The notes under the pieces were generated by a model. It was not told the origin of the DNA. It did no database searches and saw only the letters and a list, made by a program, of their open reading frames with translations. Made by a program: the position numbers and the translations under genes. This document shows positions 19,176 to 54,054 of a DNA stretch of 64,000 nt, one piece after another. The stretch comes from Gracilaria domingensis (taxonomy: Eukaryota > Rhodophyta > Florideophyceae > Gracilariales > Gracilariaceae): NCBI GenBank assembly GCA_022539475.1, contig VCMS01000049.1, positions 248,001 to 312,000 on the forward strand, read 5' to 3'. Each line of letters opens with the position of its first letter. Position 1 is the stretch's first letter.

Positions 19176-22100
19176 ATGGTAGTTGCTTCCAATAAGGGCA
19201 TTATGTCGGATGAAGATATTGCGAAGAGAATCCCTAGATTCTTTGCGAAGCGAGGGGAGGACTTTGTTTTGTGGACCATGCGGTTCGAGGCTCTTTTGGA
19301 ATCGAAGGATCTGCTGACAATTGTGACCTCTGACCCAGCAGGAGACGGTAACTTCGAAGCTCTACCAGATGACGTCAAGCTCAAAGTTTCGAAGGCTCGG
19401 ATGTATTTGGTGCAAAGCCTGGGGGACAAACTGCTTCGTTCGATTGCTGGAGAACGCAAGAATCCCTATCTAATGTAGAAGAAGTTGCGAGATCTTTATG
19501 CTACTCAGAATGTTGCCTTGAGGGTTCAGTTACAAACAGAGCTCCACCAAAGACGGTATCGCGAGGAGAAGACAATGTCGGAGTACATAGATGAGATGGA
19601 GTCCGTTTTCAATCGTCTTGAAGCAATGGACAGTGCAGTCTCGGAGTCAATGCAGGTTGCTATACTGCTGGCCAGCTTTGGCAGCGTTAGTGAATCCCCG
19701 TATGGTCCGGTTATCAGCGCATTGCAGACGATGAAAGACGTTGATTTGACCTGGGAGAAGGCCACGGCTTGTCTTCTGCAGGAATATGCAACCAGGGAAT
19801 CGAACGAAGTAACCAGATCTCCCTCGAATGGTGGTTCAGAGAAGGCTATGAAGACCTTGGCCGCGGTGCAGTGCTACAATTGTGGCAAATTCGGTCATTT
19901 TCAGCGAGACTGCAGGAAGAAGATGAATGTCTCTGTCGACTCCAACAGTCGAAGAGAGTACGCAATGGTCATTCGGAATGTTGGAAGCATGGAGAAGGAG
20001 ACTTCTATTGTGTACTCTGGCGCAACGAGTCACATGATAAATACTGCCACCCTGACTCGATAGTTTCGACAGATCTCGCCTAGACCCATTGCCCTTGGCG
20101 ATGGAAGGCGAGTGAAAGCACTCAGCGTCGGAGACCTCGAGCTTAGCGTGGCTAGTAATGATCACTCAACTGTACGGTTCACTCTCAAGGATGTTTTGTA
20201 TGTTCCTGGCCTCGATTGTTGTCTGATATCTTGTCCAGCATTGGTTGCCGATGGGCATGAGGTATCTTTCAATGGTCATGGTTGTAATGTCCATGGTCAT
20301 CCCGGAGGTAACGTCTTGTGTCCTATGAGAGATGCTAGTGGACTGTACGAGGTTCAGGGTACTGTGTATCCCGTGCACCGTGATGTTGTTCACAAGGTTT
20401 CTGAAAGAGACAGAAATGCTATCAAGATATGGCACGAGAGGTTTGGACATTTGGATCAGAAGAGAGTTCAAGCAATGTCCTCTCAGAACGTTGTGACTGG
20501 TCTTGATATGACCGCAAAGTGTGACGTAGGAGTCAGTTGTGTACCTTGCAATGAGGGAAAAATGTCCAGGCTCTCCGTGAAGAGTAGAAGCTTTTCTGCA
20601 TACGAACCCGGAGAGATTATCTATTCGGACATTTGTGGTCCGCTGTCTGTGCCAAGTATTGGCGGTAAGAAGTTCTTTGTTACTTTCACCGACCACTAGT
20701 CTTCGTTCAGATATGTCGATCTCTTGAAGACACGAAGTGAAGCTAAAGAATCCTTTAGTCATTTTCAGAAGTGGTTTGAGGGACGATTCTCTTGTCTGGT
20801 GCGGCAACTCTACTCGGACAACGGTCCAGAGTATGTAGGACTTCGGACTTACTTACGACAAAATGGGGTCGAATGGAAGACCTCTGCCTCGCACACGCCG
20901 CAACAGAATGGGACCGCAGAACGTCTGAACCGGACACTATTGAACATGACTAGGAGCATGCTTAGACATGCGAGCTTGCCCTCAAAGTTCTGGGGAGAGG
21001 CCCTATGCACCGCTGTTTACCTCAGGAACATAACTGGTGTTGACAGTAATGATGGAAGGACACCAATGGAGATGCTCACTCAAAAGAAGCCGTACGTTGG
21101 CAACTTGAGAACCTTCGGATGTGAAGTATGGGTGCATGTTTCTAAGCGGAAGAAGCTTGAACCCAAGTCCAGACGTTGTATTCTGCTCCGCTGTTTTCCA
21201 CATTTGAACTATAGGGTGTACGACATCGGAAGTGGAAGGGTTATCACAGCCAGACACGTCAAGTTCAATGAGAGTGTATTTCCGGGACGTGACATATTTT
21301 CACACCCTTCACCGGCCTCTGTACTTCAGGAAGACAATGGTGGTGAACTCTATGAAGAGGATCATGAAGATGATGAACAACCGCACGGAAGTGAATACTC
21401 TGAGGTTCCACAAGACACTGGTGCGCCCAACGACAACATTGGGTTAGCTGCCCAGCAGAACGATCAGAGCAGCGCTGTTGGTAGTGTCATAGAAGACTCT
21501 AACGTACATGGTAGCGAGCAGAGTGACGAAAGTGAACACACACAACTCACAGGGTCCGCTCTTCAAGAGTTTCTTACTCATTACCCTGTGAGAATGTACC
21601 CTGACAGAGATCGCCGCGCCCCTGATCGCTTTGGTAGCTCTCATGTAAGTGTCGATGTTGGTAAAGGAGTTCCGCAGAATGTGCACGAGGCTTTGGATTC
21701 CGATGAGGCTCAAGACTGGCGCGTTGCGATCGAAGATGAGTTGAACAGTCTACAAGAGATGAACACTTGGAGCATAGTGACACCTTCGCCTGGCAGCAAG
21801 ATCATTCCGTCGCGGTTTGTATTCGCTCGGAAGACAGATGATGATGGAAACCTGGAAAGGTATAAGGCGAGACTTGTGGCAAAAGGGTGTCAGCAATAGC
21901 CCTCAGCGTCGCATTTCGCTCCAGTTGTCGCTTTTGACACAGTCCGAATTTCTCTTGGAATTGCAAGCATTCGGAACTATCACGTCCATCAAATGGATGT
22001 GAAAACTGCTTTCTTGAATGGAAAGCTCTGTTCCAATGGCGAGAAGCTGTATATCTCTCCTCCGCGTGGACTGGACCTCAAGCTACGACGAGGACAGGCC

Positions 22101-23234
22101 CTACTTCTTCACAGAGCTCTTTATGGATTGCGCGAGGGCCAAAAGATCTGGCACAAGACATGGAGCGATGCACTGGACAGTATGGGGTTCTATCCACTTG
22201 CATGTGATGAATGCTTCTACTTTCTTAAGAGTGATGAGTTCTTTGTCTGGGTGCTCGTCTATGTCGATGATATTCTTCTGGTTGGTCCCGATTTGGAGCT
22301 GATTTGCACTATGAAGTCGAAAATGATGAAACGTTTTTCAATGAAGGACATGGGAGTCGCCTCACAGTTTCTGGGTATTCGTATCACTCGCAGGGAGGGC
22401 ATGCTCTGTCTCGATCAGAGTATCATGATCGCAAATCTCTTGCAGAATGCTTCGATGGGTGACAGCAAACCGGTCGCCACTCCTCTCCTTACAGGATCGG
22501 ACCCAGGAGGCCATAATGAGTTGCTTTCTGGTTCCTTGTCTGAGAAGTATCGAGAACATACTGGTGTACTCATGTATATTGCTTTCCGTACCCGCCCTGA
22601 TCTCAGTGTCGCAACCAATGTATTGAGTCGAAACCAGAAGAATCCAACAGACTCCGACTGGATTCGCCTGAAGAGAGTTCTGAGGTACTTGAGTGCTACA
22701 AGGAACTACGGGATGGTTTGTCAATCGAGTAGTCCAAACGGGTGCACTTTGAGAGCGTTTTCAGACTCTGATTGAGCTGGCGATAAGCGAGATAGGAAGT
22801 CTACTACTGGGTTTGTGTTGATGCTGAATGGTATTCCCATCACTTGGCGGAGTATGAAGCAGCGCTCAGTGGCTCTATCGACTACCGAATCGGAGTATAT
22901 TGCTCTGTCCGAGAGCGTGGTGGTTCTGTGGGTTAGGACTCTGCTCGGTGAACTTGGCGTTCACATTCGAGAACCGACTGAGATCTATGAAGATAACAGC
23001 GGAGCGATTGCCTGGGCGTCTTCACAACGACGAGAGAAACACGTGGACATCCGTTATCATTTCGTTCGCGATGCTATTCAGAAGAGTCTTGTTAGGATTG
23101 TGTACTGCCCAACAGATAGGATGGTTGCGGACATGCTGACTAAGCCGCTCCCGATGCAGCGTTTTCGAGATCTGAGGGAGAACCTTGGTATTGTTGATCT
23201 TGCGGCAAGGGAGGGATTGGTAAAACTGAATTGA
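19176..23234 (+). pseudogene. Copia Gag-Pol polyprotein with five in-frame stops
   Basis: One continuous frame of about 1,350 codons without frameshift. In order: Gag with zinc knuckle CYNCGKFGHFQRDC; protease with YSGATSHM, where the catalytic Asp of DSGATSHM is Tyr; integrase with WHERFGH...CVPC zinc site and catalytic residues in YSDICGPL, SDNGPEY and NGTAERLNRTL; reverse transcriptase with QMDVKTAFLNG and YVDDILLVG; RNase H with SDSD, STTESEYIAL, EDNSGAIAWAS and MLTKPLP. In-frame stops are TAG at 19476, 20061, 20697 and 21897 and TGA at 22773. The first and last stand where copia proteins have Trp. The ATG at 19176 lies just after the primer site region. Confidence 0.9.
23207..23217 (+). 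other. Copia polypurine tract
   Basis: AAGGGAGGGA directly precedes the 3' LTR, where plus-strand priming is expected. The tract overlaps the last codons of the RNase H frame. Confidence 0.75.
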
Positions 23235-30091: not shown

Positions 30092-30272
30092 GCAAGGGAG
30101 CCTCCGGCAATGGAGAAGCACCCCGAGCGACGGGGTTTAGAACGCCTAGGGCTGAGAAGCCTCGCTCCCCGGTCACAATCCTTTCGAGGAAAATGGCCAC
30201 TATCACTTTAGTGTCTTGCGTCGCCCGTGGATACGGTCGAAGAACAGCCGGCTCCCGGATAGAGTCCTGGTC

Positions 30273-32852
30273 ATGGCGAAACGTAACTACAAAGTTTACG
30301 CCGACCTAAGTGTTTCCGACCAGTACATGGTTCGGCAGTTGTCCGTGCTCGATACAGGAGCTGGGCCAAATTTCTTGGTTGAATCGATGACTCCGCCGCA
30401 CTTGCGGTCTCGTGTTCGTGCGGCGCCGCAGATTGATATAGCGGATGCGAACAATCGGCCTCTTTCGACTGTGGGAGTAATAGACCTGCTCGTCAGGCTT
30501 GGCCGCTACGTGGCGAAGCTCGATTTCTTGGTTTGCAAGCAACTCGCTGCGCTGGTTATCCTCGGCTGCGACTTCTGTGACCGCTTCGTCGATGCAATTC
30601 GACCGTGGAAGCGAACCATCGAGACGGAAGATGGGACTACTGTACCGATCGTTTGGCGTCCCCTTCGCCGGGCTTTGAAGAAGCAAGTCCCTTTGCCTGC
30701 GGCACAGAAGCCTACAGCCGATGAACGGAAGTCTACAAAGCTCCGAGTAGCTCGGTCTATTTCCATCCTGCCTGAATCACAGGTCTGGGTTACTGTGACG
30801 TCCCCACAATGTGGCTTACAAACGGTACAACCGTTGCCTGCGTTACAGGAGAAGCATCAGCTTGCCCTCGCTAATGGGATTGTTTTCGTCGAACCCGAGA
30901 AGCCTTTTCAGGTGCTGGTTGCGAACTTCAGCCGTTTTCCTCAACGGTTGGTTAGGAGCCAAGTTATTGGTTCATTGCTTCCGCACCCTGCGGCTATAGT
31001 GCCTACTCAGGTTTCTATTGCCGAAGTTCTCGGTATCCTCGAAACTGAGGAGGGGGAGGCGGAACGGAACAATGCCGAACCAAACCCTGGTCTGAACAGC
31101 TCGTCGGAAAATGCTACGCCGACTTCGTCGGATGCGAATAACCACAGCCTGTCGAAGGAAGCAATGCCGACCTCGTCGGACAATAATGATAAGGACCTGA
31201 GTGTTGCTGACACGAAGGATAAGGCAGTACAAGAACTGGAGTCTCTGGATCTTGAACATGTCCCAGAGACTCACCGCGATAAATTGCGGCACATGCTTGA
31301 GGAGTTCACGCCCATGTGGGATGGCACACTGGGTAAGATTGGTATTACCGAACATCGGATTGATTTGCTACCGAATACTCGGCCCATTTGGCGGCACCCT
31401 TACAGGGCAGGACCGACAGCTCGGCAGGAGGAGAAAGCTCAAGTTGAGGAGATGCTCCGCGCTGGAGTTATCGAGCCGGCTCAGTCACCATGGGCATCGC
31501 CGGTGGTGCTCGCGCCCAAAGCTGATGGGTCTTGGCGATTTTGCATCGATTACCGCAAGCTAAACGCGGCTACAGTCAAGGATGTATATCCTATCCCACG
31601 AATGGATGAATGCATCGATTCGTTGGGCGACACGAAAGTGTTCACAACCCTAGATGCGAATTGGGGCTACTGGCAAGTTCCCTTGAGGGCCGAAGATCGT
31701 GACAAGACAGCCTTCGTCTGTCATGAAGGATTGTACCGATTCAATCGGATGCTCTTTGGGTTAACGAACGCGCCAGCCACATTTCAGAGAGCTGTGGATA
31801 TTTTGCTCGCCCGCTTCAAGTGGAAGACTTGCCTGGTTTACCTGGACGACATCATTGTCTACTCCAGCAACCTGGACGAGCACTTGACCCACGTACGGGA
31901 TGTGATGCGAGTCCTACGAGATGCAGGCATCACACTCAAGCTGAAGAAGTGCGAGTTCTTTACCGAAACCGTCAGGTATCTCGGCCACGTTATCCGTCCT
32001 GGACGGCTTTCGATTGACGAAGTACGCGTGAAATACCTCAAAGAGGTTAAGCATCCGAGGACGCAGACGGAACTCCGATCTTTTCTCGGCTTGTGCAATG
32101 TGTATCGCCGCTTCATTCCGAACTTCGCGGATATCGCTGCACCTCTGAACGAGCTTCTTTGCAAAGGACAGCCAGTCGACCTGGAAGAATTCGACGACCG
32201 CAAGGCCGCGGCTTTCTCGTCGCTCGTGGACGCGGTGACATGGCCACGTGTTTTATCCCTGCCTAGGGCTGGTTTGCCGTATGCAGTAGATACGGATGCG
32301 AGCGACTACCAAGTCGGCTGTGCCCTGTTCCAGACCACCAATGATGGCGAGCGATTCCCAATTGGGTATTGGTCAAGGAGCCTCAACGTTCACGAGAAGA
32401 ATTACTCGGTATCCGAGAAGGAGTGCTTGGCAGTTGTCTGGGCATTACAGACACTGCGGCCCTATCTTATGGAGACCCGCTTCATTGTTCATACCGATCA
32501 TTCGGCCTTACGCTGGCTACTCTCTATAGCAGAGCTATCTGGCCGCTTGATGCGGTGGAGACTTCGCTTGTCGGAATTCGACTTCGAAATTCGTTACAAG
32601 AAAGGACTCCTGAACACTCAGGCTGATGCACTGTCCCGCTTGGAAACAGCGGCTGAAGCTGCGCCAGTCGATGATCTGGAGATACCGTGCTTCTTCGCGG
32701 AAGACGGCTCGAGCGATGCCGATGAAGAATCGGAAGGATGGGACATCTACGATGCTGTTTTAGCCGTGTCAGACACGCAACACGAACCGGGCTCTTTCGT
32801 ACCGAGCAAGCCGGAGGAACTCATCCGGGAGCAGCACACCGGAGATTCGTAG
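30273..32852 (+). pseudogene. Gypsy Pol: protease, reverse transcriptase, RNase H
   Basis: Starts at the ATG at 30273, in a frame different from Gag. The frame is open somewhat further upstream, so the true join to Gag is unclear. Protease motif VLDTGAGPNF. Then a spacer rich in Asn/Ser. Reverse transcriptase has WRFCIDYRKLN, FTTLDANWGYWQVPL, FGLTNAPATFQ and the catalytic YLDD at 31839-31850. RNase H has AVDTDASDYQVGCAL, SEKECLAVVWAL and VHTDHSALRWLL. It stops at 32850, and integrase continues in the next frame, so a one-base indel near 32840 probably broke a single Pol frame. Reverse transcriptase copies the element RNA in the particle. Confidence 0.9.
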
Positions 32853-35364
32853 TCGTCTAAATGGTGGAGCACAGTTGCCTTTCGTCGAGAACGACCAAGG
32901 ATTTCTAATCCGAACTGTCGGAAACAGGCCACAGATTGTGGTTCCGCACTCACTTCAGTCACGAGTACTGCATTTGTCGCACTATGCGAAGTTGTCAGCC
33001 CACCCTGGTGGCAGAAAGTTGTACTACACCTTACGGAAGAACTTTTACTGGCCAGCAATGGCTTTCGACGCGTATGCCACTGTTCGTGGATGTTCTGACT
33101 GCGCGAAGAACCGCGTCAAGCTGCAGAAGTATTCCAAGAAGTTGGTACTATTCCCTGCTAGGGCTCCACTGGAGGTTGTGGCGATCGATCTACTCGGTGA
33201 GTTTATTCGCACCCGCCAGGGAAACCGGTTTTTGCTTGTTATCACCGACCGCTTTTCTAAGCTGGTACGCACTGTGCCTTTAAAGAATGTTACTGCTAGT
33301 GCGGTCGCCCAAGCTTTCGTCACACACTGGGCTTTTGTCTACGGACCGCCGATTGACCTACTATCGGATAATGGACGGCAGTTTACGGCTAAGTTCTTTC
33401 AAGACGTCTGCCGCATCTTGCGGATACAAAATTGGTTCACGACTACCTATCATCCCCAGAGTAATGGGCAGGTTGAGCGATTTAACCGCACTATGCTCAA
33501 TGCATTGCGAACATTTGTTGCCGAGCATCCGTCGGAATGGGATCAGTACGCCGATGCCGTGACATATGCCTACAATACACAGGTTCATCGTACGACTCAG
33601 ATCTCGTCGTTCGAGCTGGTGCTATCACGCGCCTCACCTTCGGTGGCCATCGAGCCACAGCCAACTTTGGACAAGTTCCCCTCGCCCCGTCTACACAGGG
33701 ACGCCTGGAAAAACTGGCTTAAGAACATTATCCCTACAGTTGGGCAGAATATCGCTAAAGCACAGGCCGCATACAAGCGGAATTTTGACGCTAGAGTGCG
33801 TAAGAACGCCCCGCATATCAGAGAAGGTAGCTATGCCTTCGTGCAGAAGGAGTACTACAACCTCGAGAAAGAGAAGCGACACAAGCTTTCTCCTATCGCG
33901 GACGGCCCGTTCCGGGTTATTGCTGTTACCGACACAACGGTTGTCCTTGACATCAAGGGAAAGCACGAGCGTTTGTCGTTGGATCGCGTAAAGCCTGCGC
34001 CAAAGCCTGTTTGGCAGGAATCGCAACCGCCATCGTCGGCTTCTACCGCACCTATTGTGGAAACAGCCGTCGAAACGGAAACAGCCGCCGCAGCGGGAAC
34101 TCGCAATCAACCGTCTGTGTTGCCGCACCCGGATCGCAGACTTGCTCATCTGCCAGCTAAGCCGGAATCTGACCCATCGATCCCTACAGCCGCATATGTG
34201 CACACGCGGATAATGACTTCTACGAGGATACTGGCCACCGCCCCCGACGCTTCGACTGAGGAGGGAGAGGAGGTAAATCGCTCTGTGTCGTTGTCGCCGT
34301 CGTCGACGGAATCGTCTTTGCAGGCTTCTGTTTCGCACGAGCGCGCGACGTCGTGCGACACGCAGCCGGAAACCCGGAATGAAAAGGACGACGCGCAGGT
34401 ACCGCGCAAGCCTCAAGAGGAGGAGCTACGTTCGCAGGCCCGAAAACGGCAGCACAGAACCGATGTGGTACGTGATATGCTGCCGGAAAGCCGGAAGAGT
34501 CGCACAGGTTCGCTGAGGCCTTCGGAGAAGGACGCGCCGTTACCACGAAATCCTGAGTTGGAAAGCACCACTACGGTGAATCGCAAAGCCGGAAGACCCG
34601 AAGGAGAGAAGTTAGTGAAGAAAGACCGTGCTGTTACGGCAGATCCGACTTCGGGAGATTTTGGTGCAGCACCAAGTGCCGAAGCCGTCGAAAATACGGA
34701 ATTAACCACCAGTGTGGCAAGCAGTCAAGCCACAGCAAGTGGGCAGCACTCAAGCACCGCCGACGAGCGCACGGCGCGCCAAGTGTCGAGCTTCGTGGGA
34801 GATCCGCCTCCAACCGAGGATTACAGTGCACAAGCCGGGCACGTGCCAGCCATAGACCTGGCGCCGCCTAAAACCGGTTCAGAAATTTGCGAGTTTGAAT
34901 CGGCTCTTGAAAGCCATGCAAAGGCGCAGGTGTCGCAGACCGCAGTGCGCGGCGAACCGTCGCCACGGCATGTGCCAGAACACCACTCGCTGGCACACCG
35001 CGTTGCGGACCGTTCACCGTCGCAACGGGAGATTATGCCGGAACCCCGGAAGCTCACCATTCGAGAAGAACGAAGTCCGTTTACAGCCCAGCAGCATGGG
35101 AAGAAGAACCAGGAAACTGGAAGCCTGACAGTCAGGAAAACACCATGGTCAACGTCGCCTTCGCCTGGTGTGCAGGATGTGTTGCCGTCAGGACCAAAGC
35201 CACCTACATTTGACGATGCCCACGACGGAAACAGGAGCGATGACGCCTCGAAAGAGGATTCCTCGACCAAGCCGCATCCTGAGCGGAAGGTCCTCGATGA
35301 GGAATATGTTATCGACCGTCTGGTAAGTCACGGCTACGCCCCTGACGGGGAACTACTGTATTGA
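32842..35364 (+). pseudogene. Gypsy integrase with a long hydrophilic C-terminal tail
   Basis: The frame is open from about 32842. It has an H2C2 zinc site (HLSHYAKLSAHPGG...CSDCAKNR) and a catalytic core with VVAIDLLGEF, LLSDNGRQFTA and HPQSNGQVERFNRTML (D, D, E all present). A GPY/F-type module follows (YAFVQKEYYNLEKEKRHKL, IADGPFRVIAV, LSLDRVKPAP). About 450 more residues follow, rich in Ser, Thr, Glu, Pro and Lys and without recognisable fold. This tail is unusually long for an integrase and could bind chromatin or host factors. It is separated from reverse transcriptase by the frame change at about 32840. Confidence 0.85.
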
Positions 35365-39063: not shown

Positions 39064-40295
39064 ACTGTTTATGCGACGAAAACTGCTCTTGGTTAAGCTT
39101 TGTGATTGTTTCAGCAGATTGGAGATTAAAACCGCAAGAACGTTTAGCGCACAATAACATGGACTTAGGAACTTCATATGATAGTTTTTCTTCAACTTTG
39201 ATACTATGGTTTTTTTAAATGAGCCTGTTTTGGTCTCTACACTCTTAAAAACGTCTTATCTGGAGCTTGCGAAAAACTACGTTCGTTGTCATAAAATGGC
39301 AATTTGGGCAATAGAAAAAATAAATTCAATCTTTGTAAGTTTTTAAGTTTTGATAGAGTGACGTGAAAGGGGTGCGCGCACGTAGCATTACCGCTGCAAG
39401 TTACAAACATGGTGTTCTATTTAACACAATATCTCGCAAATGTTCGCGAATATTCGCGAATCTTTTGAATATTTGCGAACATCTGGAAATGCAAATATTC
39501 GGAAACGAACAAAAACTTGTGCCAAATATTGACGTATACGTTTGTTCATATCGTACTATCTCCCGTTTCCTAAACATCTTCGTTCATGCCTGTTAGATTC
39601 TGTAGACAACGCAGACGTATGTCAATTAGTTTTGCTATATTCGCGCGCTAAAGAGCCGAATATTCGCGAATATAGGCAAAAATTAAGAAATGTAGAGAGC
39701 GAATAATCTGGCTTCAGAGATAATTGACGTAATTCAAGCTAGTAGTACGTAAAACAATAGTTTGGCTTCCACATAACACATTTCGTTAGTTGGCGGAAGA
39801 ACTAGCGTCTTTATAAAGAACGTGAAGAACTGGAATATTCGCGAACATATTAATGTTCGGTTGAAGGAAACAGTAAGTTGGATCTCGCCTTTGCCACACA
39901 TTGACATATAGCAAAATAATTTACAAATTTAAGAAATTGTGTCACGTAAGACAGTGTACAAGTTGTCGAATGGTTGCTTCTGACAGTTCGTAGTACACGA
40001 ATTTTGGTCGCTGGCATTGTTGTTCTTATTTGATTACAACGAAGCGATTATATATTTAAATACACGCATTACCGCAAGCTCCTGTTCTGTTCCGTGACCG
40101 TTTTGCTTGGTTCAAAGCTTCTTTAGTGGGGAAGATATCGTGCTTTCTGGTAGTGTGCCAGGATGTACCAGAAAGAAAAAAACGTTGGAATGAGAAGGAT
40201 TTTCAGGTGCTGTTCAAGTGTTGAGCCCACCCCCCTGTAGTTCATGTCAAAAGACGGAGATTTCCGCGAGCTCCGTGCGCCCCTTGTACGCATAA
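39064..40295. repeat. AT-rich region with TTCGCGAATATTCGCGAA motifs, diverged relative of the 45.1-46.8 kb element
   Basis: No gene. Between about 39430 and 39870 several copies of (G)TTCGCGAATATTCGCGAA and half sites appear, and ATGTTCGGTTGAAGGAAACAGTAA resembles ATGTTCGTTGAAAGAAAACAGTAA at about 46303 inside the nested element. So this is probably an older or truncated copy of the same element. I found no GAAACTCGGG ends here. Confidence 0.5.
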
Positions 40296-40453
40296 CCCCA
40301 TGACACCAAGGTGAGGTATTTTCCTCACCCAATTTTTTGGGTGCAGTGGGATGTGCTGGTCCCACTCACTCACCCAGGGTGCAGTAGTCCCGACATAAGG
40401 TGCAATGCACCCTGGCAAGGTGCGCTCACCTTGCTCCAGGGCGCACTCACCTT
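40296..40453. repeat. Left terminal inverted repeat of the piggyBac-like element
   Basis: The outer 146 bases match 46842-46987. The inner twelve (CGCACTCACCTT) match 45090-45101, on the far side of the nested insertion. Confidence 0.9.
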
Positions 40454-40945
40454 ATGGTGGGACCACATTCATTCGGGCAATGATGTTTATCAGCGGAACT
40501 AAGGCTCTTAGGCTCTTCTTTGGCTTCTGTGATACGTATTGGACAGTCCAACAGAGCCCAATTCAATAGTCGCACCAAAACGGTTGGACTGCAACAATTG
40601 CCCCTTGTATATCACCAATCTTCTCTACGTTTACGCTTCTTTTCTGGACCCGATCATTTTTGCTCAACAAATTCTATGACACTTTTTCCATACAATCGCT
40701 AGAGTTAGACAATAGAACTGTCAACAGCTTTGGATTAAGTGAATCTCGTGCGTATATCATTACCGTATGTGGGATGTGAGCAATGTCTATTGGTTTTCGC
40801 CTTTGCTTCAGCATCATGCGCTTAGGATACTGACTTGTGTTCTACCCTGCTTATACAGAACGACGTAAAAAGCAAATCGTAAAGTAAGACCCGTGTTGGT
40901 GTTGCAGAAGTTTCAGCATCAAACGCACTCTTTTTATCTCTTTAC

Positions 40946-43900
40946 TTAGTGGCTTGGTACGCTGCTTCCGGCAACGTTTTGCGGTTCATTCAACCCACGT
41001 TTCATCAGTTCCTGTAGTTCTTCATTTGGTATTGTTGCTCTGACAAGCACTCTGTTTTTGTGCCAAGGATCCCAACAGCGAGAGCAAATTGCTTGCCTAC
41101 ACAAAACACACCATAGCTTTTGTCTGGCACCCCCTTTCTTTCTGAAAACTTCTCCGTTCTTCTTAATAGTGTGGCTGTAAGAACAAAGAGAGCAATACGA
41201 CTCTTTCCATTTCACCTTTCTATGCAACCGTGAGCCGGACAATCTCCTAATCGTATCCTCTGCTCTGTTGTACTTTTCTACAACGTTGCGCTTAAACAAA
41301 GGCTCTATCTGCAACGAAGGCAAGGAATCACCTTCAATGCTGTTTGCAACGTTACAACTTTCACGTGTGTGCTCTCTTGAGTTCTCTAATTGTAAATTCT
41401 TCTTGTACTCTTTCGCAAGTTGTCTCGCGTAATCTGCAAATGTTGTGCATCTGGATACATCGTGACGTAACTCCCTGTACCCTTTGCCTCTGGGTACATC
41501 CTGCCACGTCTCTGGTAAAGCTCCACGGTTCTTGGCTTTTGACAAACGGTATAAAACGGCGGCATTATTGACCTGAGCGCACAGAAGTCTTCCAATTATG
41601 CTAACGATCGGGTTCTCCGAGGCATTTGTATAACAAAGGGAAGTCAATACTCTGCTGAACTCGTCCACTCCTCCCTTGAAGTGGTTCCAATACACAAGAG
41701 CAGCAGGTCGGATCATTCTGGCTGGAGGAAGAGTCCCATTTTTCTCCACTAAGTGTTTGTAAGCACAGGTTAAGTTGTAGTAAGTGGCATAGGAGTGAAG
41801 ATCTGTAGCATGCGTCAGGGGCAGCGTGTTGTCGTATTCCTTTGGGATATGACTTGCACTTTCTCCAACCCACTCGAATCATCCAACCCTTAACGAAGAC
41901 AATAAATAACTGTACTGGTACAACAAAGTATTCGTGAACTCAATGATTGACGCATAGATAATTTCTCCGACGCCAGTTTTGCTTCCTTTTGCAACCACAA
42001 AACATACTTTTTCTGTTCCTGAACACAAAGCGTGGTGAAGACACTGCATTCGATAGCCCGTGGAAGGAACAACGTCTTGAAATAGTTGCAACACGTCTTC
42101 ACTTGTTCCAACAGATTTTAACACCGATAACGCCCCATACTTCCTCCGTACTTCTCTGGCCTTCTCAATCGTTCTTAATGCGGTCATTGTCTTTATCTCA
42201 ACAGCACATACGTTCTCCTCATCGGCTTTAATATTGGTGTAAGACATCAAAGCATCGGGGCTGTCAGAAACCATTGGTTCAGACTTTGAAGAAATTAGAC
42301 CAACTGTGCGAATGTAACCAACTTTAAGCTGGACTGTATCGTCGACATGACCCTCTCGGCATCGAATCGCAGCGCTATTGTCAATAAAAAGTGAAGGTAG
42401 TGCCTTCAGAACCTGTCCTTCGTTAAAAAGTCCTTCCTTCATTCCTAAAGTGCTCACTAAAGGTTTCATGACCCAGCAGTCAAGCGAACTTTTGTACATG
42501 GATTCGCGAAATGATTTCACATCATTCTGTAATTGCTGGTCTTCGTTGAGTACCTGCGGACTACTGTCCTCGAGAGTTATTCTTCCATATGAAACGTCCG
42601 ACTTCAATTTCAAAACCTTTTCTACAAATGGAGTTTTTCTAATAGATCCAGGCACAGGATGCCCCACTCTGCTCATGATTGAAATAAGCTCTGCTCTGGT
42701 CTTCGATGAAATGACCTCAGAACTTGACTGAAGCAAAAAATCTCTTGCTTCTTGAAAGTCGTTGAGGGACTGGCTAGAACAAAGTTCAATATTAACAGTG
42801 TGGCATATATGCTTAGCCCGCACCTCCAGACACAATCGCACCTCCTCATAATCATCACGGAAACGTGTAGATCCCAATCCAGTTTCTTTAGCTCTTGTCA
42901 AGTCGGAGAGAGCTCTGACGTTCGCTTCAAAATTCTGCGCTAAGGTTCGTACAAATGTGCTGCTTGTACGGGACGTAAATTCAAATGCCCGCGCCAAGAA
43001 CCAAACCGGATCTTCAGATTGCAGTAAAGTGACCTCTTCAGTCTTTGCCAACAGCTGTGCAACCTTTTGCCGGCCATTGTGACTTAGCAAATAGTCATGT
43101 GTTCCTTCCGCCCTCAACTCGTTCTGAAACACTCTGTGAAATCTCTCACGCTCTTCTGCACTATTAACAAGCTTAAACCCGGTCTTCGTTATCAAAACAA
43201 ACTTCGACGAATTAAACATTGGGTCATTATTATGATAGACACTTGCGATACGTCCGCTGTAGCTTTCACGGTATACAATAGCTTCCACTGGGCGACCTGT
43301 GGAACTTTTCGGTTTGCGGCGAGCAGAGTAAATTGCTCTACACCCCTTTTCGCTGACAGCAACTCCTTTGTGACGTTTGCGAATAGGTCCATCCCCAAAA
43401 ACGAAAGGATAGTCAAGTGTTCGCTTATGAGTTCCAAGAATTGTAGCACCAAGTCGATCATTAATAAAGTTGATAGACTCTTGATGACTGTACCCTCTGT
43501 CGGCTGCAAAGACCATATCAACCATAGGTCGAATAGGACCGGACGTAGGCACACCTTGCAGTAGCCTTATTAGTCGCTCCCATCCATCTAAAGACTGCTC
43601 TCCGACTCTTGAGAAGTGACGCGCGAGAAAGACGGGATTCAACGCAGAACAAATCGCATTATTAACAGGACCAAGCGCCTTTTTTGGGTTGTTAACGTGG
43701 CTGAGTGCTGTCAGCTGTGCAACAGCACGAGAGCGCAGCCGCTGGTGATCATCGTCTAAACTTAAGATACTACGGCCTGGAAGCAGTAAAAATAACCTGT
43801 TGATTGATGCCAGTTCATCCTCGAGCTCAGTGGTAAGAGCATTGGCTCTTCGCGGTAGATTTGACCATCCATTTCCATAGCTTTCAACGCGCTGTCTTCG

Positions 43901-45055
43901 CTCCGGATTGAAACATAAAGCAGACCAAATGTCATTGTACCGCACCCCAGATATCCCGACTTGAAAGAAGAAGTCTGTGTTCTCCTTCGCCGTCATAGTC
44001 TGCACAGATGTGGAGTACGAAGCAGCCAACACGTGCTGAATAATTACTCCTTTGATTTCAAAAGCAGAAGTAAGAGGTTTCTTGCGGGCACGGAGTACGC
44101 GATTGACATTAAGAGCTACTTTCGAAAGAACGTAGTCCGGAAGAAAAACATCAAACGTCGAGAGGCGTGTGAGGTTGCTCTCATTAGTTTCAGCCCGACC
44201 GTTGCTTCCATCTTCTTGAATTTCCTTCGTAACGTTTTTAAGGATCATGTTCGCCTCGTATAGAAATTTTTGACCTAGCTCATTGTTCAACTCATCCACT
44301 TCAAGATCCAAAACTTTAAAGGGGGAAGCATACTGCTAATTACCAAGACCTGTCACATTGTTTCTGTTACAATCATTTGAAACATCGTCTTCACATTCTG
44401 TTCCAGTCTGCCCAGAACCCATGCTTTCCTCGAGTGTACAATCCATTTCATTGTGGAACAACGATGCCCAAACGTCTTCAACGGCCGTAGTGCGTGCTTC
44501 GATTGCGTTTGTAGTTACGCTCTCTAGGCTATTCCGGGCATCAAATGTTTGCCTATCTCGGTACAAATTTCGACCTTCTGTTGCTGGAATTGTTGTAGAC
44601 TAGTTGTGTTGGTCGCCGTCATTAATCAGATCAATAGTTGATCCAGTGGTGCATGTTTCTGACTGACTGGCATTTGGCACGACGTACGTTGGGTCCATGT
44701 CACTGCCTTCTCGTCCTTCCTCTGGATTGTGGTTTGTGTTCATTGTGTTTAGTGTTTGATCGTCTTGCGAGTGGTAAAGATTTGTGTGCGTTGGAAACGG
44801 TGATGTGGAAATACTGAGGTTGATCGGTTCATTGTCTTTTTCGTGCACAGGTGGAGAGTGCAGTGTAGTTTGAACTACAATCATGTCTTGGTCTGCGTCT
44901 GAGTGAAACTGATCGCCACTGAACGATTCAATTGGATCGTTTGGACTCGGAGGAGACGTGTCTACCTCACACTGCGTTATGGGAGGATGTCGCATCTGTA
45001 AGATCGTTAGATGGCAATGACGATAGAGCAGGATATTGAAAGAGGCTAGGTGCAA
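40946..45055 (-). pseudogene. piggyBac-like transposase with inserted YqaJ/lambda-exonuclease-type domain
   Basis: One minus-strand frame of about 1,370 codons with stops TAG 44600-44602, TAG 44336-44338 and TGA 41879-41881, and no frameshift. Numbering from 44311: an acidic N-terminal tail lies upstream. Then a piggyBac-like region (about 85-135), a likely first Asp in LSLDDDHQRLRSR (about 186) and a second in AADRGYSH...GATILGTHKR (about 271), and a YRESYSGRIASVYH strand. Residues about 600-775 look like a YqaJ-type PD-(D/E)XK nuclease: EGLFNEGQ, VSDSPDAL, CAVEIKT, YRMQCLHHAL...KVCFVV. After the TGA, piggyBac resumes with YWNHFKGGVDEF (third Asp, GGVD) and NNAAVLYRL. A Cys-rich zinc end follows (CSLC...CVLCRQAICSRCWDPWH). 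The nuclease lies between the second and third catalytic Asp. Confidence 0.75.
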
Positions 45056-45101
45056 TATCTTTCTGTCCGAGTTGCTGGGCCCTGGATCAAGGTGAGTGCG
45101 C

Positions 45102-45106
45102 CCTGG
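45102..45106. repeat. Target duplication of the nested element, left copy
   Basis: CCTGG; repeated at 46842-46846. Confidence 0.7.
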
Positions 45107-46841
45107 GAAACTCGGGAAATGCAGAAAATGAACTATTTTTAAAAATTATAGTTCAATAAGCAGTAAAAGCGTTGATTAATAATGTTTACAGCAAGGCCTT
45201 TCCCAAATGTGGTAAGTTACAAACAGATAAATTTTAACTTTGCATACACGAAAGCTCATGTGCACAATACAGTAGGCATGCTAAAAGAAGAATGGCTCTG
45301 AAAAAGCCTTTACTATTATTTTAATGATAAATTTGAATATATTTGATGATGACTTCGAACTTATCATCGTGAACTTGTGATAACATGCATAACATCACCT
45401 TCCAGACGCCTGAGCTTTGGTGTTAGAAAGTGTTAATGTCTTGGATATTAGGTACGCCTGTTAATTTCAACTTGTAGTTTCGTGAGCTTAACATTTGAAT
45501 ATTCCGAAACAAACGAATTTTAAGCTACAGAGGTGACAACTTGCAACATTTTGCCAGTTTTTGGTGTAGGTAACAAGATGAGACTTCAAAAAGCTTTTTT
45601 TCTACATTATCAAATTATTTGATTGTCGAAGCTCAACACTATTATGATTGAGCTCTTGTTTGAGATCGAAGTCTCATTTGAAAATGACACTCGTTTCACT
45701 GGAGCTTGCGGGAATCGCCGTTTGTTGACATAAACTAACAAGTAATTACAGGCGTCAGCATGTAAGACATTGTAGATTTATTTGGACCAATTTCACATAA
45801 AGTTACAATCACGTGATAGGTGTCACATTAGATATTGTAGGTTTCCAAAAATGATTGTTATTCGGCAAAAAGATCTTGGAAATGTTCGTGAATATTCGCG
45901 AACAATGCGAATATTGGCGAATGTTCGAAAAAGCAGAAGTTTAAGAACGAACAAAATAGAGCTCCCGAATTTTACTAGAAGCCGTGCAGTATAACCTACA
46001 ATTTTTGTTCTATGTAACGACCAGCTATAGATCTATTGAGATGTAGTGAAGAGTAAGAAAGTAGTTTCCAAGAAACGTAATGTTCGCGTGGCGAACATGA
46101 AAAATATTCGCGAACATGAGCGTTTTTTTAAGAATTTGAAGCGGCGAATACTTCTTTTGTAGAAGTCAAAAACCGTATCTGAGTTCTAGGCGTAGACAGT
46201 GCTGGTCATGCTTTCAAACTATATGCTTTATGTCTATGAAGACAAATTACTTTGTCTAATAAGGTTTGTTCTATCTCAAAATGTTCGCGAACAAAAAAAT
46301 GTTCGTTGAAAGAAAACAGTAATTTCAACATACGGTCAAGTTGTAGGCTTCTTTAGCAAAAAGTTTGGGTAAATACCAGAGCGTGACAGGAACAACCTGT
46401 CAACTTACAAAGGTATACGTTTTTAATAAAAATTGAGACTAATCCTTTGGACGAACATTGTTGTACTTTCTGAAACAACTGCAAAATTTTGCTCTTTCAA
46501 TATCAACTTCCGGTGTTTCCCGCAAGCTTCTGATCTCAAGAACTCTACAAAAGTCATCAACCGATGTAACTCTTGTACATGTAGTTGATGACTGAAATGT
46601 TGCTAAAGAGAACAAACGCTCATTAGTCTACTGTAAATCAATCAATACAAAGGTAAAGTCCAGATTGATACCTTTTCCAATAGGCAGTATTCTTCTTTCG
46701 TAAGATTTTTGTAAACCGTTGCATGGCTGGCACGTCTTTTAGTTCCAATTCTAGGGTAACTTTAAAATTAGCATACTTACATACGGTTGACATACGTAAG
46801 GCTCGTCAAATATTCTGCTTTTTTCGCAATTCCCGAGTTTC
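45107..46841. mobile_element. Nested non-autonomous DNA element, 1,735 bp, unrecognised superfamily
   Basis: Ends are inverted repeats: GAAACTCGGGAAATGC at the left and the complement of GAAACTCGGGAATTGC at the right. They are flanked by CCTGG direct repeats that restore the piggyBac inverted repeat when the element is removed. The interior is AT-rich with several palindromic ATTCGCGAAC/GTTCGCGAAT sites (around 45885-45925, 46080-46125 and 46280-46300). No gene of size is present. Five-base duplication and 16-bp ends do not settle the superfamily. Confidence 0.8.
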
Positions 46842-46987
46842 CCTGGAGCAAGGTGAGCGCACCTTGCCAGGGTGCATTGCACCTTATGGCGGGACTACTG
46901 CACCCTGGGTGAGTGAGTGGGACCAGCGCACCCCACTGCACCCAAAAAAATTGGGTGAGGAAAATACCTCACCCTGGTGTCATGGGG
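46842..46987. repeat. Right terminal inverted repeat of the piggyBac-like element (outer part)
   Basis: Reverse complement of 40296-40441 with about five differences, one of them a T6/T7 length change. Confidence 0.9.
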
Positions 46988-47957
46988 ATAAATTGCGTTC
47001 ATCATCATTGTACGCAACAAGGACAAATTCAGTCCCGGTTTCTGAGAGGCCTGTGGACGCCATTTTTGGGCGGAATGACGTGGGTGGTGACAAACCCGAG
47101 GAGAGCAACAAAGATTGTTCGAGAGTACCAGCCTAAACGGCGAAAGACGATAGTGTAGCTCAGCGATAGGGACAGCCCAGAACAACAGAAACAGAGCAAC
47201 ACACCCGGTAACCAACGTGTCTCGAAAGCCCACAGCCAGGTGGAGCGACAACAGGAAGGTACCACGGTAATGCAAGACACGGCCCGAGTTCGTGAAGGGA
47301 ACGAGGGCGTTCGAATAGTAAAGAAGGTCGCAATGTGCGAACGAGCCCAACAGAGGGCACCACACTGCAACTTCAGGAAAGGTGGCGGGAGACCGAGCCG
47401 CCAGTAAAGAGGAAAGAGGGAGGAAAGGTTGGTGGCAGGGAAGCACAGACCGTGCTGAGGGGAAATGGTGGGTGCCAAAAGGAGGAGGTGGAAGTCGACG
47501 ACGAAGAAGGGGAAGAAACAGTTTGCAAAGGTGGAGAGGGAGGGTCGTCGAGAGAGAGTGGTCTACCCGAGCCGAGTTAGTGGTGAGGTCTCGAGCTCGG
47601 GGGTTTATATAGAAAGCTGAACTTGAGATATAGTCTGACGTGGCGTGTTCTTTCTATTCTACACCTAGAAAGAATGGAGTTATTTCCGTGACGTTTCTCT
47701 AAAGTGAGTACATGATCGGTCTTCCATGTCGGGGTGTTGTCCGACTCCATTACACGCTATGATGTATGTACCTGTGACGGCGTTATGTTATTCGAATATT
47801 TGTCAATGTCCCCTTGGTCCCCCAGTTACCCAGGTATGCCCTATCAAAGTCCTGTGCCGACTGTCGCGAACCAGGATAAATGTCTTTCCACCCGATGCTC
47901 TGCCACTAGTTTTCCGTTCCTCACGATCCCGATCTTAGTTACTTTTCTCCGTCGAAC
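46988..47957. other. Intergenic region, no gene supported
   Basis: Overlapping long frames on both strands (for example 46895-47446 minus) cross the transposon end and show no domain, so they are probably chance in a purine-rich strand. It contains the upstream region of the acidic-protein gene. Confidence 0.4.
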
Positions 47958-51783: not shown

Positions 51784-52767
51784 TCACCCGCGCGCCCACG
51801 CCGCGCATCGCATCGGCAGCAAAAACACCGTCCACAGCGCGCGCGCCTCCATCAACAACGACAGCGCCGGCTGCTTTAAGTAGTAGGACATCACCATCAA
51901 GCCCCAAAACCCGAACCACCTCGCCCTCCCCTCAACCACCTCCCGCACCAACCGCTCAACCTCCTCGCGTTTCCGAGCGTCACACGCGACCAGCCTCGCC
52001 GACGACGCGCCCGCGCCATGCGGGTGCGCGATGTAGCGCAGCGCTTTGTCTGCATCGGCGAGGCGGCCGCGCGCGACGAGCCAGCGCGGCGACTCGCACA
52101 ACCGGGATGACAGGGCCATGACGAGCAGTTCAAGTAGCGAGGTCGCGACGACGGCACCGCGCCAGCCGAGGTTGGACAACTTTGGCGCGAGCTTTTCGTG
52201 ATCCGGGAGGACGTACGGCAGCAAGCCCGATATGAGGATACACGTGCTCCAGAACGAGCGCCACGACGCGGGGACCATCTCCGGCAGGATGATGTAGCAC
52301 GCCAGCCTGCAGCCGCCGACGCTGAGGCCCATGAGCACGCGGAAGGAAAGCAGCGCGAGGTAGTTAGACGACAGGGCGCACGCAAGCTTGCACGCAAACG
52401 TGCACAGCGTGCAGAGGCGGAACACGGCCTTCCGACCGCGCAGGTCGATGACGGGCCGCCACGCGAAGAAGCCCGCGATGACGGCCAGGCCGCACGCGGT
52501 GTGGAGCCAGTAGAACTGCGTGTCGGAAAGACGCCATTCGCACGTCAGGGGCTGTTGGATGAGGGCGAGAACGAAGGTGTCGACGGGCTCGGCGGCGTTG
52601 GCGAGGGAGGCGAGAAAGACGAGGTAGTACTGGTAGCGAAGGACGGAGAGGGGCGGCAGGAAGTAGGGGTCCAGTACGTCGTCGACGGTGAAGGGGCGCG
52701 GCGCCGGCGGGGCGGGCGGCAGCTGCAGCGAAGTGACTTGTTCCCGCGGGCGTTGCTCGGACGGCAT
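51784..52767 (-). pseudogene. MFS transporter (SV2/OCT-like), C-terminally truncated
   Basis: I start at the ATG at 52765-52767 (MPSEQRPREQ). The open frame extends further up but looks non-coding. 327 residues carry only the first six or seven membrane segments and the central loop. Landmarks of the organic-ion/SV2 branch of the major facilitator superfamily are present: the loop-2-type RPVIDLRGRKAVFR, FRVLMGLSVGGC...EMVPASWRS (helix 4 to 5), and ESPRWLVARGRLADADKAL before the central loop. Normal members have 12 segments and about 450-550 residues. After MVMSYYLKQPALSLL the frame goes into a Trp/Ala/Arg-rich end without further helices. So the gene is probably broken, or the rest lies in an unseen exon. 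The substrate is unknown. Confidence 0.7.
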
Positions 52768-53145
52768 TCTGCGGAGACGCCGCGCGCGCGGAAAAGCGTC
52801 CGGCCACTGTGACGGTGCGGCGCCCGTGGTGCACAGTGACGAATCGATCAACCACAGACGAATTCTTACGTGTCCAGAAGGATGTCGTGGACCCGACAGA
52901 CAACGTGGACACACATGCCATACTTTGGCGTTCTCGGGAAATGCATTTATACCAAAAGAATTGTTGCACAAGCTAATTAACAACGTGCATGCCGTTCTGA
53001 CGCGTAGAATTAACGATGTGTTTCCATTTCTGAAGAGCTTTTTCGAAGAGTGAAGGGCAGTCACGCACGTCACGCTCATCCATACATCCTTTGGCAACAC
53101 GACGATGTACGTACATCGTCGAAGCGTCAAGGCGCATTAACACAA

Positions 53146-54054
53146 TCAATCTTCAACAGCTCTGGAGAAGGTCCCGAACGACCCCAACCCAAACAAGGAA
53201 CGCCTCCTTCCCTTGGCCGGAAAAGAAACATCCCGTCCATTTAGCTCCTGCACATCGCGCGCGTTCCCAAACGCCTCGCTTTCTGTCAGCCTCAAGAAGA
53301 ACGCCACCTGCCACCTCGCCACCGTCTGTCGCCGGTTCGACAACAGCCACGTCACCCCCTCCGTGCACGGGGGCGTCGTTAACGACCCTGAATATCTCCC
53401 AAACCCTTCAACCCCCCTCAGAAAAGCGCCCGTATTTACCCGAAACCTTTCCAAGCCCACGCGCACCCTCGCCAGAATGGCCGTCAACGCGCCGTTACTG
53501 CCGCCCGATAAAGGCGCCCTCGTTTTACAATCGCCGTCCCGGCCGTCCGAAAACATGATGGACAACACCAGCAACGCGCCACTGTCCGACGCGTGTACCA
53601 TGTGCGCTTCAAGCGGGTACGCCACGCCACCGATGCGATGCTCGCTGCTTGAGTGGAAGTGAATGTTCACCAGGCTATAATGCACACCCTCCAGCTGCGC
53701 CCCACCACACGAGCCGGGATGCTCGCACGCTAGCTCAAAGTTGGAAGTTGTTCGCTCGAAGCGCACCTCGGCTGTAGTGGTGTATATTGTGGGCCTTGCT
53801 CGCAGCGTTTGTGCGTCGGGGACTGTTCTGGGGCATGGGAAGTCGATCGGGCTTTGGGAGAGACCGGAGCCGCATACGGCGAAGCTGGGGTCTAGAGTAG
53901 CCCACATGGGCGGACCGTTTGGCGCGGACGGGTCATAGGAGAACAGGTCCAGCTCTTCTTCTTCACGGTTTGTCAATGGCAGCCGATTGTTGATCGCGTG
54001 TGATGCATTGAGTAAGATTATCAAGAACGCGAGCGAAAATAGACCGTACGACAT
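53146..54054 (-). CDS. Alpha-type carbonic anhydrase, secreted
   Basis: 302 residues. Signal peptide MSYGLFSLAFLIILLNASHA. The alpha-CA fold landmarks are in place: QSPID (67-71), IHFHSSSEH with zinc ligands His132 and His134, the third His151 in YPLEAHMVH, and the substrate pocket GSLTTPPCTEGVTW (223-236). Cys61 and Cys230 stand where the family disulfide forms. The enzyme interconverts carbon dioxide and bicarbonate. A secreted form would work in the cell wall or periplasm-like space to supply inorganic carbon for photosynthesis. It is intronless. The truncated MFS gene lies 379 bases downstream on the same strand. The final 30 residues are basic and not part of the core. Confidence 0.95.
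   Translation of the reverse strand: MSYGLFSLAFLIILLNASHAINNRLPLTNREEEELDLFSYDPSAPNGPPMWATLDPSFAVCGSGLSQSPIDFPCPRTVPDAQTLRARPTIYTTTAEVRFERTTSNFELACEHPGSCGGAQLEGVHYSLVNIHFHSSSEHRIGGVAYPLEAHMVHASDSGALLVLSIMFSDGRDGDCKTRAPLSGGSNGALTAILARVRVGLERFRVNTGAFLRGVEGFGRYSGSLTTPPCTEGVTWLLSNRRQTVARWQVAFFLRLTESEAFGNARDVQELNGRDVSFPAKGRRRSLFGLGSFGTFSRAVED

Follow-up and report, generated by a model that had tools for sequence, protein, structure and literature searches.

Transposases of the piggyBac superfamily, such as those of T. ni piggyBac and piggyBat, have a core of three catalytic aspartates (DDD), the third of which lies in a GGVD motif, and a cysteine-rich finger at the C-terminus. Their elements make 4-bp target duplications and have terminal inverted repeats (TIRs) starting CCC (PMC12732532; papers are cited here for the sections consulted). 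In T. ni piggyBac the catalytic aspartates are D268, D346 and D447, residue numbers that place the first and second (D1-D2) 78 residues apart and the second and third (D2-D3) 101, and an insertion domain (residues 372-433) follows the fifth strand, in a slot that is topologically common to all DDE/D transposases having one (PMC7351741). The DDD core, the GGVD motif, the cysteine-rich finger, the 4-bp duplications and the CCC ends are shared by a transposon of the red alga Gracilaria domingensis, one copy of which lies in a 64,000-nt stretch of contig VCMS01000049.1 (positions 248,001 to 312,000; the whole stretch is referred to here as the window). It differs from piggyBac in carrying a nuclease in an insertion of about 500 residues, in targeting NTAN and not TTAA, and in scoring under the cut-off of PF13843. 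Its protein of 1240-1374 amino acids (aa) compares with 500-725 aa in beetle piggyBacs (PMC12732532), and its TIRs are roughly 80-365 bp, though some bee piggyBacs also have long ones (PMC10140906).

Other known systems share parts of this arrangement. The YqaJ, lambda exonuclease and RecE proteins (PF09588) have the motifs FNE, SPD(A/G), E(I/V)K and Q in the identical order, whereas the nuclease described here is embedded in a transposase, has a longer stretch before ExK than the phage proteins and falls below the PF09588 cut-off. Tn7 also combines a DDE enzyme with a nuclease, TnsA being a restriction-like PD-(D/E)XK enzyme that makes the 5' cut beside the DDE enzyme TnsB, but it is bacterial and the two are separate proteins. 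They act in one transposition reaction (PMC8188705). ISL2EU elements of the PHIS superfamily are transposons that encode a DDE transposase and a YqaJ domain, but mostly in two open reading frames (ORFs), with a THAP domain and another target (PMC4482050), whereas one frame holds both parts in five copies here. PiggyMac of Paramecium is piggyBac-derived and cuts with a 4-bp stagger centred on TA, of which only the TA is conserved; it is domesticated, and the consulted sections of its description mention no nuclease domain (PMC3408717). KolobokP is likewise a eukaryotic DDD/E transposon lineage with an extra endonuclease, but that endonuclease is of the His-Me finger homing type and the transposase is Kolobok (PMC9587614). 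In the open PubMed Central literature we found no piggyBac that has a PD-(D/E)XK domain, of the YqaJ type or any other, with subscription-only papers, bioRxiv as such and Repbase outside the search. The parts are known and the arrangement is new.

Transposase and nuclease in one reading frame

A preliminary description of the window had listed the motifs AADRGY, SDSPDAL, CAVEIKT, YRMQCLHHAL and FKGGVDEF and a cysteine-rich end, and all were found in one minus-strand reading frame (Table 1). The genome that contains the window (77.9 Mb, 680 contigs) gave at least 61 matches to the first ORF of the window copy and at least 83 to the second. It also gave twelve matches to the phycobilisome family, ten of which lie on contig C680; these are in keeping with a red alga that has a plastid contig, and would suit other algae bearing phycobilisomes too. 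Uninterrupted homologues that encode both catalytic sets together are present in it, as both halves lie within a single ATG frame of 1240-1374 aa in at least five copies on different contigs (L002, 1337; L004, 1240; L005, 1374; L007, 1316; L012, 1339 aa). These five were aligned with a sixth copy, L006 (1204 aa), the C-terminus of which is shifted (six copies, alignment A1).

In every one of the six copies of A1, 85 residues separate D1 from D2 and 614-619 separate D2 from D3. The latter spacing is 101 in T. ni piggyBac, and L069, a canonical piggyBac from this genome, has spacings of 110 and 150. Between D2 and D3 the family thus has about 500 extra residues, where 400-500 had been proposed, and the nuclease lies within them as had been described. 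The three aspartates occur in piggyBac order and contexts, with GGVD at D3, and are conserved in 14/15 (first position of D1), 15/15 (D2) and 17/18 (D3) sequences. The third motif of the family, YWNYLKGGVDEFSR, is similar to piggyBac YYNQTKGGVDTLDQ.

Conservation of the nuclease was determined in 22 segments of the retrieved loci (each an ORF of 100 aa or more with over 75% profile coverage, some nearly identical). The E of FNE is kept in 20 of these, the P, the D of SPD and the E of ExK in 21 each, and the K and the Q in all 22. The nuclease is likely to be catalytically competent. The segments were compared using hhalign with a YqaJ profile made from 13 phage YqaJ/lambda-type exonucleases and the PF09588 gene L164 of the same genome; the match scored 39.8 (probability 73, E 3e-5 for this single comparison) over 120 columns and aligned the D, ExK and Q, and the highest score among 100 column shuffles was 19.4. 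The proposed relationship of the insertion to PD-(D/E)XK nucleases of the YqaJ type is therefore upheld. PF09588 itself matched two of six nuclease segments weakly (E 0.11 and 0.17), and the RecE-like phrog_434 (recombination exonuclease) also gave a weak match in two of six (E 0.054-0.055). We have little doubt about the architecture, which is a DDD RNase-H-like transposase with a YqaJ-like PD-(D/E)XK nuclease between the second and third aspartates.

L164 (G000:C117:131700-132400) is the sole gene of the genome reported to match PF09588 (YqaJ). It shares with the transposon nuclease the order SPDG, EIKT, Q, and may be near the source of that nuclease. Compared with L164 alone the nuclease scored 28.6 (best shuffle 23.9). 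No relatives of L164 were found in viral_contigs, and a scan of viral_contigs for lambda exonuclease gave 80 near-identical copies, which were left unused. A SAP/Rho_N domain was considered for the insertion and left as a weak lead (Rho_N E=0.24, one of five copies).

Relationship to piggyBac

The preliminary description had called the element piggyBac-like. In favour of this are the DDD, the GGVD, the cysteine-rich end, the 4-bp duplication and the CCC ends; TTAA specificity and a PF13843 score above the cut-off are lacking. In 5 of the 10 N-parts scanned, PF13843 matches one common profile segment (E between 5.5e-4 and 0.033), and canonical piggyBac copies of the same genome pass its cut-off. 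A comparison profile was built from piggyBac, piggyBat and three copies of the genome; with it the C-part gave a match over the cysteine-rich end only, scoring 36.0 (best of 60 shuffles 25.7), and the N-part match covers 129 columns up to D1. A Pfam scan of the window ORFs gave neither a piggyBac nor a YqaJ match. Searches of the PDB returned only a glycoside hydrolase for the first window ORF (E 0.32, taken as chance) and no matches for the second. The element is of a piggyBac-related lineage, and the qualifier is needed because its targets are NTAN not TTAA and PF13843 is under its cut-off.

Divergence and co-evolution of the parts

Column identity averages 78% over the N-part as far as the insertion (A2, five rows) and 71% over the C-part (A3, five rows). 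Within the insertion the averages are 54% for its first half (A5, five rows) and 63% for the nuclease (A4, six rows, one of them the window copy). Among nine divergent pairs from A1 the proportion of synonymous differences (pS) in the nuclease is 0.72-0.89, so that synonymous sites are near saturation, and for this reason raw proportions and not dN/dS were used for most divergent pairs. The proportion of nonsynonymous differences (pN) in the same pairs is 0.23-0.40 in the nuclease, 0.19-0.29 in the DDD core, 0.35-0.53 in the first half of the insertion and 0.47-0.57 in the N-terminal tail. The close pair C266-C20 has a nuclease ratio of 0.46, with too few changes for any inference. Nuclease and core co-evolve: their distances correlate with r=0.90 among 11 copies (those of 40 merged stretches in which all three parts were more than 85% complete), and 0 of 2000 permutations reach that value.

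Distant relatives on C165, C112, C17 and C9 (26-32% identity) keep the order of core and nuclease, and the two matches are approximately 160-215 residues apart as calculated from coordinates; on C165 each of the two reports an open frame of 916 codons. No relatives of the family were found in viral_contigs and genome_contigs.

Ends and target sites

TIR start motifs were drawn from ends already seen and then searched across all merged stretches. The TIRs of the family begin CCCC. In nine copies with both ends recognised (C49, which is the window copy, C42, C50, C2, C284, C1, C57, C171 and C263) the 4-bp duplications are identical in 9/9 and all are NTAN: TTAT in three, CTAT in two, and CTAG, TTAA, ATAC and GTAA in one each. 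Seven of the nine are non-palindromic and so discriminating, as CTAG and TTAA are palindromic and cannot separate a duplication from a repeat end. Copies with one recognised end also have NTAN, in 7/7 (TTAA, ATAA and CTAG twice each, CTAA once). The family target is NTAN, because the central TA is present in all nine two-ended and seven one-ended sites, and the TTAA specific to piggyBac was found in only one of the nine and two of the seven. Target sites of C266 (TTAA) and C374 (ATAT) were read by eye, and the 5' end of C495, which does not have CCCC, was taken as truncated. In C155 and C311 both sides carry inverted repeats with unrecognised outer ends, and these two were left out of the count with the remaining stretches.

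At G000:C86:91790-92684 two TIR matches lie in opposite orientation 0.9 kb apart, and this pair is a probable non-autonomous derivative of the family. A separate, canonical-looking piggyBac family (L061-L065, on C302, C357, C38, C99 and C40) has ends that read by eye CTAG|TGTCTAT on both sides; CTAG may be its fixed target, though as a palindrome it may belong to the repeat.

The window copy and its surroundings

The element in the window is larger than the extent given in the preliminary description, which corresponds to its coding part (Table 1). It is 6692 bp, with TIRs of approximately 150 bp and a perfect 4-bp target duplication. Aligned with the intact copy on contig C42, its coding frame has no frameshifts and three in-frame stops (TAG 44600-44602, TAG 44336-44338 and TGA 41879-41881), and because of these stops the window copy is dead. 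When its own genome was searched for an empty site of this insertion no whole one was found, only the two flanks and short repeats.

Table 1. Position of the features of the window copy, numbered along the window
Feature	Position	Strand	Remark
Whole transposon copy	40296..46987	-	6692 bp; termini CCCC...GGGG
Target site duplication ATAA (TTAT in element orientation)	40292..40295	.	flank
Target site duplication ATAA, second copy	46988..46991	.	opposite flank
5' TIR, outer ~147 bp	46841..46987	-	inverted-repeat arm pairing
3' TIR	40296..40441	-	inverted-repeat arm pairing
Transposase-nuclease coding frame	40946..45055	-	final stop at 40946; 45055 is the frame extent, not an assigned start codon
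Region preceding D1	43763..44155	-	PF13843 profile positions ~3-95 match here in other copies, not in the window copy
First catalytic Asp motif SLDDDHQRLRSRA	43724..43762	-	
Second catalytic Asp motif AADRGY	43490..43507	-	
TLLQSEDPxWFL segment, conserved, first half of insertion	42983..43030	-	
Possible SAP/Rho_N-like segment, weak	42593..42703	-	Rho_N match in a copy other than the window copy
YqaJ/lambda-exonuclease-like PD-(D/E)XK domain	41882..42520	-	
FNE motif of nuclease	42419-42442	-	
SPD motif of nuclease (SDSPDAL)	42248-42268	-	
ExK motif of nuclease (CAVEIKT)	42188-42208	-	
Q motif of nuclease (YRMQCLHHAL)	42026-42055	-	
Third catalytic Asp motif RPAALVYWNHFKGGVDEFSR, including FKGGVDEF	41651..41710	-	piggyBac counterpart KPQMVMYYNQTKGGVDTLDQ
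C-terminal cysteine-rich zinc-finger motif YCSLC...CVLC...CSRCWDPWH	41060..41197	-	

The 5' TIR of the window element is broken by an insertion of approximately 1.73 kb at 45107-46840, the ends of which are imperfect inverted repeats (arms 45102-45140 and 46808-46846, 77%); this is probably a nested transposon. Elsewhere in the window there is a Ty3-type retrotransposon pol in two adjoining ORFs (30216-35364; RVT_1, RNase H, integrase) and fragments of Ty1/copia type (20724-22775; integrase, RVT_2). Probable host genes are a WD40-repeat protein (22-2745), a sugar transporter-like gene (51784-53130) and a carbonic anhydrase (53146-54054).

Possible role of the nuclease

The explanation that we favour, and regard as reasonably probable overall, is that of a cut-and-paste DNA transposon from a lineage related to piggyBac, with two nuclease centres in its single protein. 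As in piggyBac, the DDD core would nick the 3' ends, form and then open 4-nt hairpins, and join these ends into a target site whose strands are cut 4 bp apart around the central TA. The excised piggyBac end bears a 4-nt TTAA overhang after hairpin opening (PMC7351741), and this always fits the next site if every target is TTAA. Successive NTAN targets differ in their outer two bases, so that a 4-nt 5' overhang from the old site would misfit the new one, and because it would usually misfit and yet the duplications are perfect in 9/9 copies, the old overhang must be removed. The built-in nuclease would remove this overhang, or the whole 5' strand, before gap repair. It is a natural candidate for the trimming because it is predicted to be 5'-acting, is inside the transposase and sits in the slot of the target-channel insertion domain. 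It is a tentative suggestion that this enzyme works on 5' strands or flaps in the course of transposition, and host flap nucleases could remove the overhangs instead. The wider proposal, that both nucleases of the chain work and that acquiring a 5'-acting recombination exonuclease able to take off the donor-derived overhang freed a piggyBac-type element from TTAA to use any NTAN site with perfect duplications, is a speculative one which we consider doubtful.

Several results count against these interpretations. On the piggyBac side, PF13843 is below its curated cut-off in all N-parts (best 19.8 vs 22.4 bits) and has no match in half of them (those of the window, L012, L028, L020 and L010); the N-part scored a modest 27.8 with the piggyBac profile (best of 60 shuffles 25.2), and hhalign with thinner piggyBac alignments gave no sensible N-part match. 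Profile searches of the PDB returned neither piggyBac nor exonuclease, as the family profile had no matches and the nuclease profile only FtsI and others (E 0.57 or worse, taken as chance). For the nuclease, the match with the 13 phage exonucleases alone is weaker (35.4; best shuffle 31.9), the PF09588 cut-off is not attained (best 13.2 vs 22 bits, and four of six segments have no match), and a single-sequence AlphaFold2 model had a mean predicted local distance difference test (pLDDT) of 34.8, too low for use. The 5'-to-3' polarity assumed for it is that of the YqaJ family of exonucleases, and is carried over from lambda exonuclease. Some ordinarily built piggyBacs are reported to make non-TTAA duplications (PMC12732532, PMC10140906), and these together with the possible CTAG target of L061-L065, which would be a fixed one, suggest that a departure from TTAA needs no nuclease in itself.

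The nuclease is also not found beside every core. With pieces of one copy merged by hand, a nuclease match lies within 4.5 kb of 44 out of 73 core places, and the other 29 have none at that distance, which is a further point on the negative side. Four of the 29 were examined (L016, L026, L029 and L023), and these end inside the insertion and are also without the C-part; downstream of one such cut-off core place, L050 (C230) has kept a nuclease end beside its C-part. The remaining places, including C159 and the distant C100 and C104, were outside that examination, and there may be a nuclease-free sister lineage among them.

Two alternatives concern what the element is. The stop that splits the window copy just after the nuclease could be read as two neighbouring genes run together, or as a chimaera or assembly artefact, but this is scarcely credible and was rejected given that five complete copies, each in a single frame, lie on different contigs, that distant relatives (C165, C112, C17 and C9) keep the order of the parts, and that core and nuclease diverge in a correlated way. 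It is also very improbable that the element belongs to Kolobok or ISL2EU. Kolobok makes 4-bp TTAA duplications too, but its termini are 5'-RR...YY-3' (PMC9587614) and not CCCC...GGGG as here; ISL2EU carries a YqaJ protein, but mostly in a second ORF, and its target is A|AT|T (PMC4482050). Both were rejected on these termini, ORF layout and target and on the piggyBac-like D3 context and cysteine-rich end, a separation made by descriptions and not by transposase profiles.

The others accept two centres and assign the nuclease a different task. It could cut the second (5') strand at the transposon end and so make a hairpin unnecessary, in the manner of the heteromeric TnsA-TnsB transposase of Tn7, which cleaves both strands at each end (PMC8188705), and two nuclease centres in one chain would suit this. 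We consider it unlikely, as the piggyBac hairpin residues near D3 seem partly kept (YWN...GGVD vs YYN...GGVD), piggyBac geometry fits the 4-bp NTAN duplications, and the homology detected is to YqaJ exonucleases, in a comparison set that did not include TnsA. The YqaJ-like domain might instead have lost cutting and serve structurally, as an insertion domain that does no more than bind or shape the target DNA. The small insertion domain of piggyBac lines the target-DNA channel (PMC7351741), and the nuclease is conserved less than the core (63% vs 78% mean column identity), which again tells against our explanation; retention of the acidic side chains, of the lysine and of the glutamine in 20-22 of the 22 segments is not demanded by mere DNA binding, and we judge this reading to be improbable also. 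YqaJ, RecE and lambda exonuclease enzymes are recombination exonucleases, and the nuclease could chew the 5' ends of the donor site after excision, leading to homologous repair from a sister copy and so to a rise in copy number. The weak phrog_434 match and the number of copies in the genome are in keeping with such resection, but the empty site of the window insertion was not found in its own genome, and we think it quite unlikely.

The proposed trimming of 5' overhangs by the built-in nuclease bears on PiggyMac, after whose cut unpaired 5' nucleotides are removed by enzymes that were unidentified as of 2012 (PMC3408717). If the wider proposal is true, the exonuclease of this element would be a self-contained version of that missing 5'-trimming step at NTAN breaks of the PiggyMac type, and the element makes it testable why 5' trimming is needed at piggyBac-type breaks in which the TA alone is conserved, such as those of ciliate DNA elimination. 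piggyBac is a leading transposase in genome engineering, where the constancy of its TTAA target and its clean excision are prized; a relative found in nature with a nuclease in the insertion-domain slot and NTAN targets would show target choice and end processing changing together, and could show how such transposons loosen their choice of landing site. It would also be a further case of an entire enzyme domain that has settled within the RNase H transposase fold.

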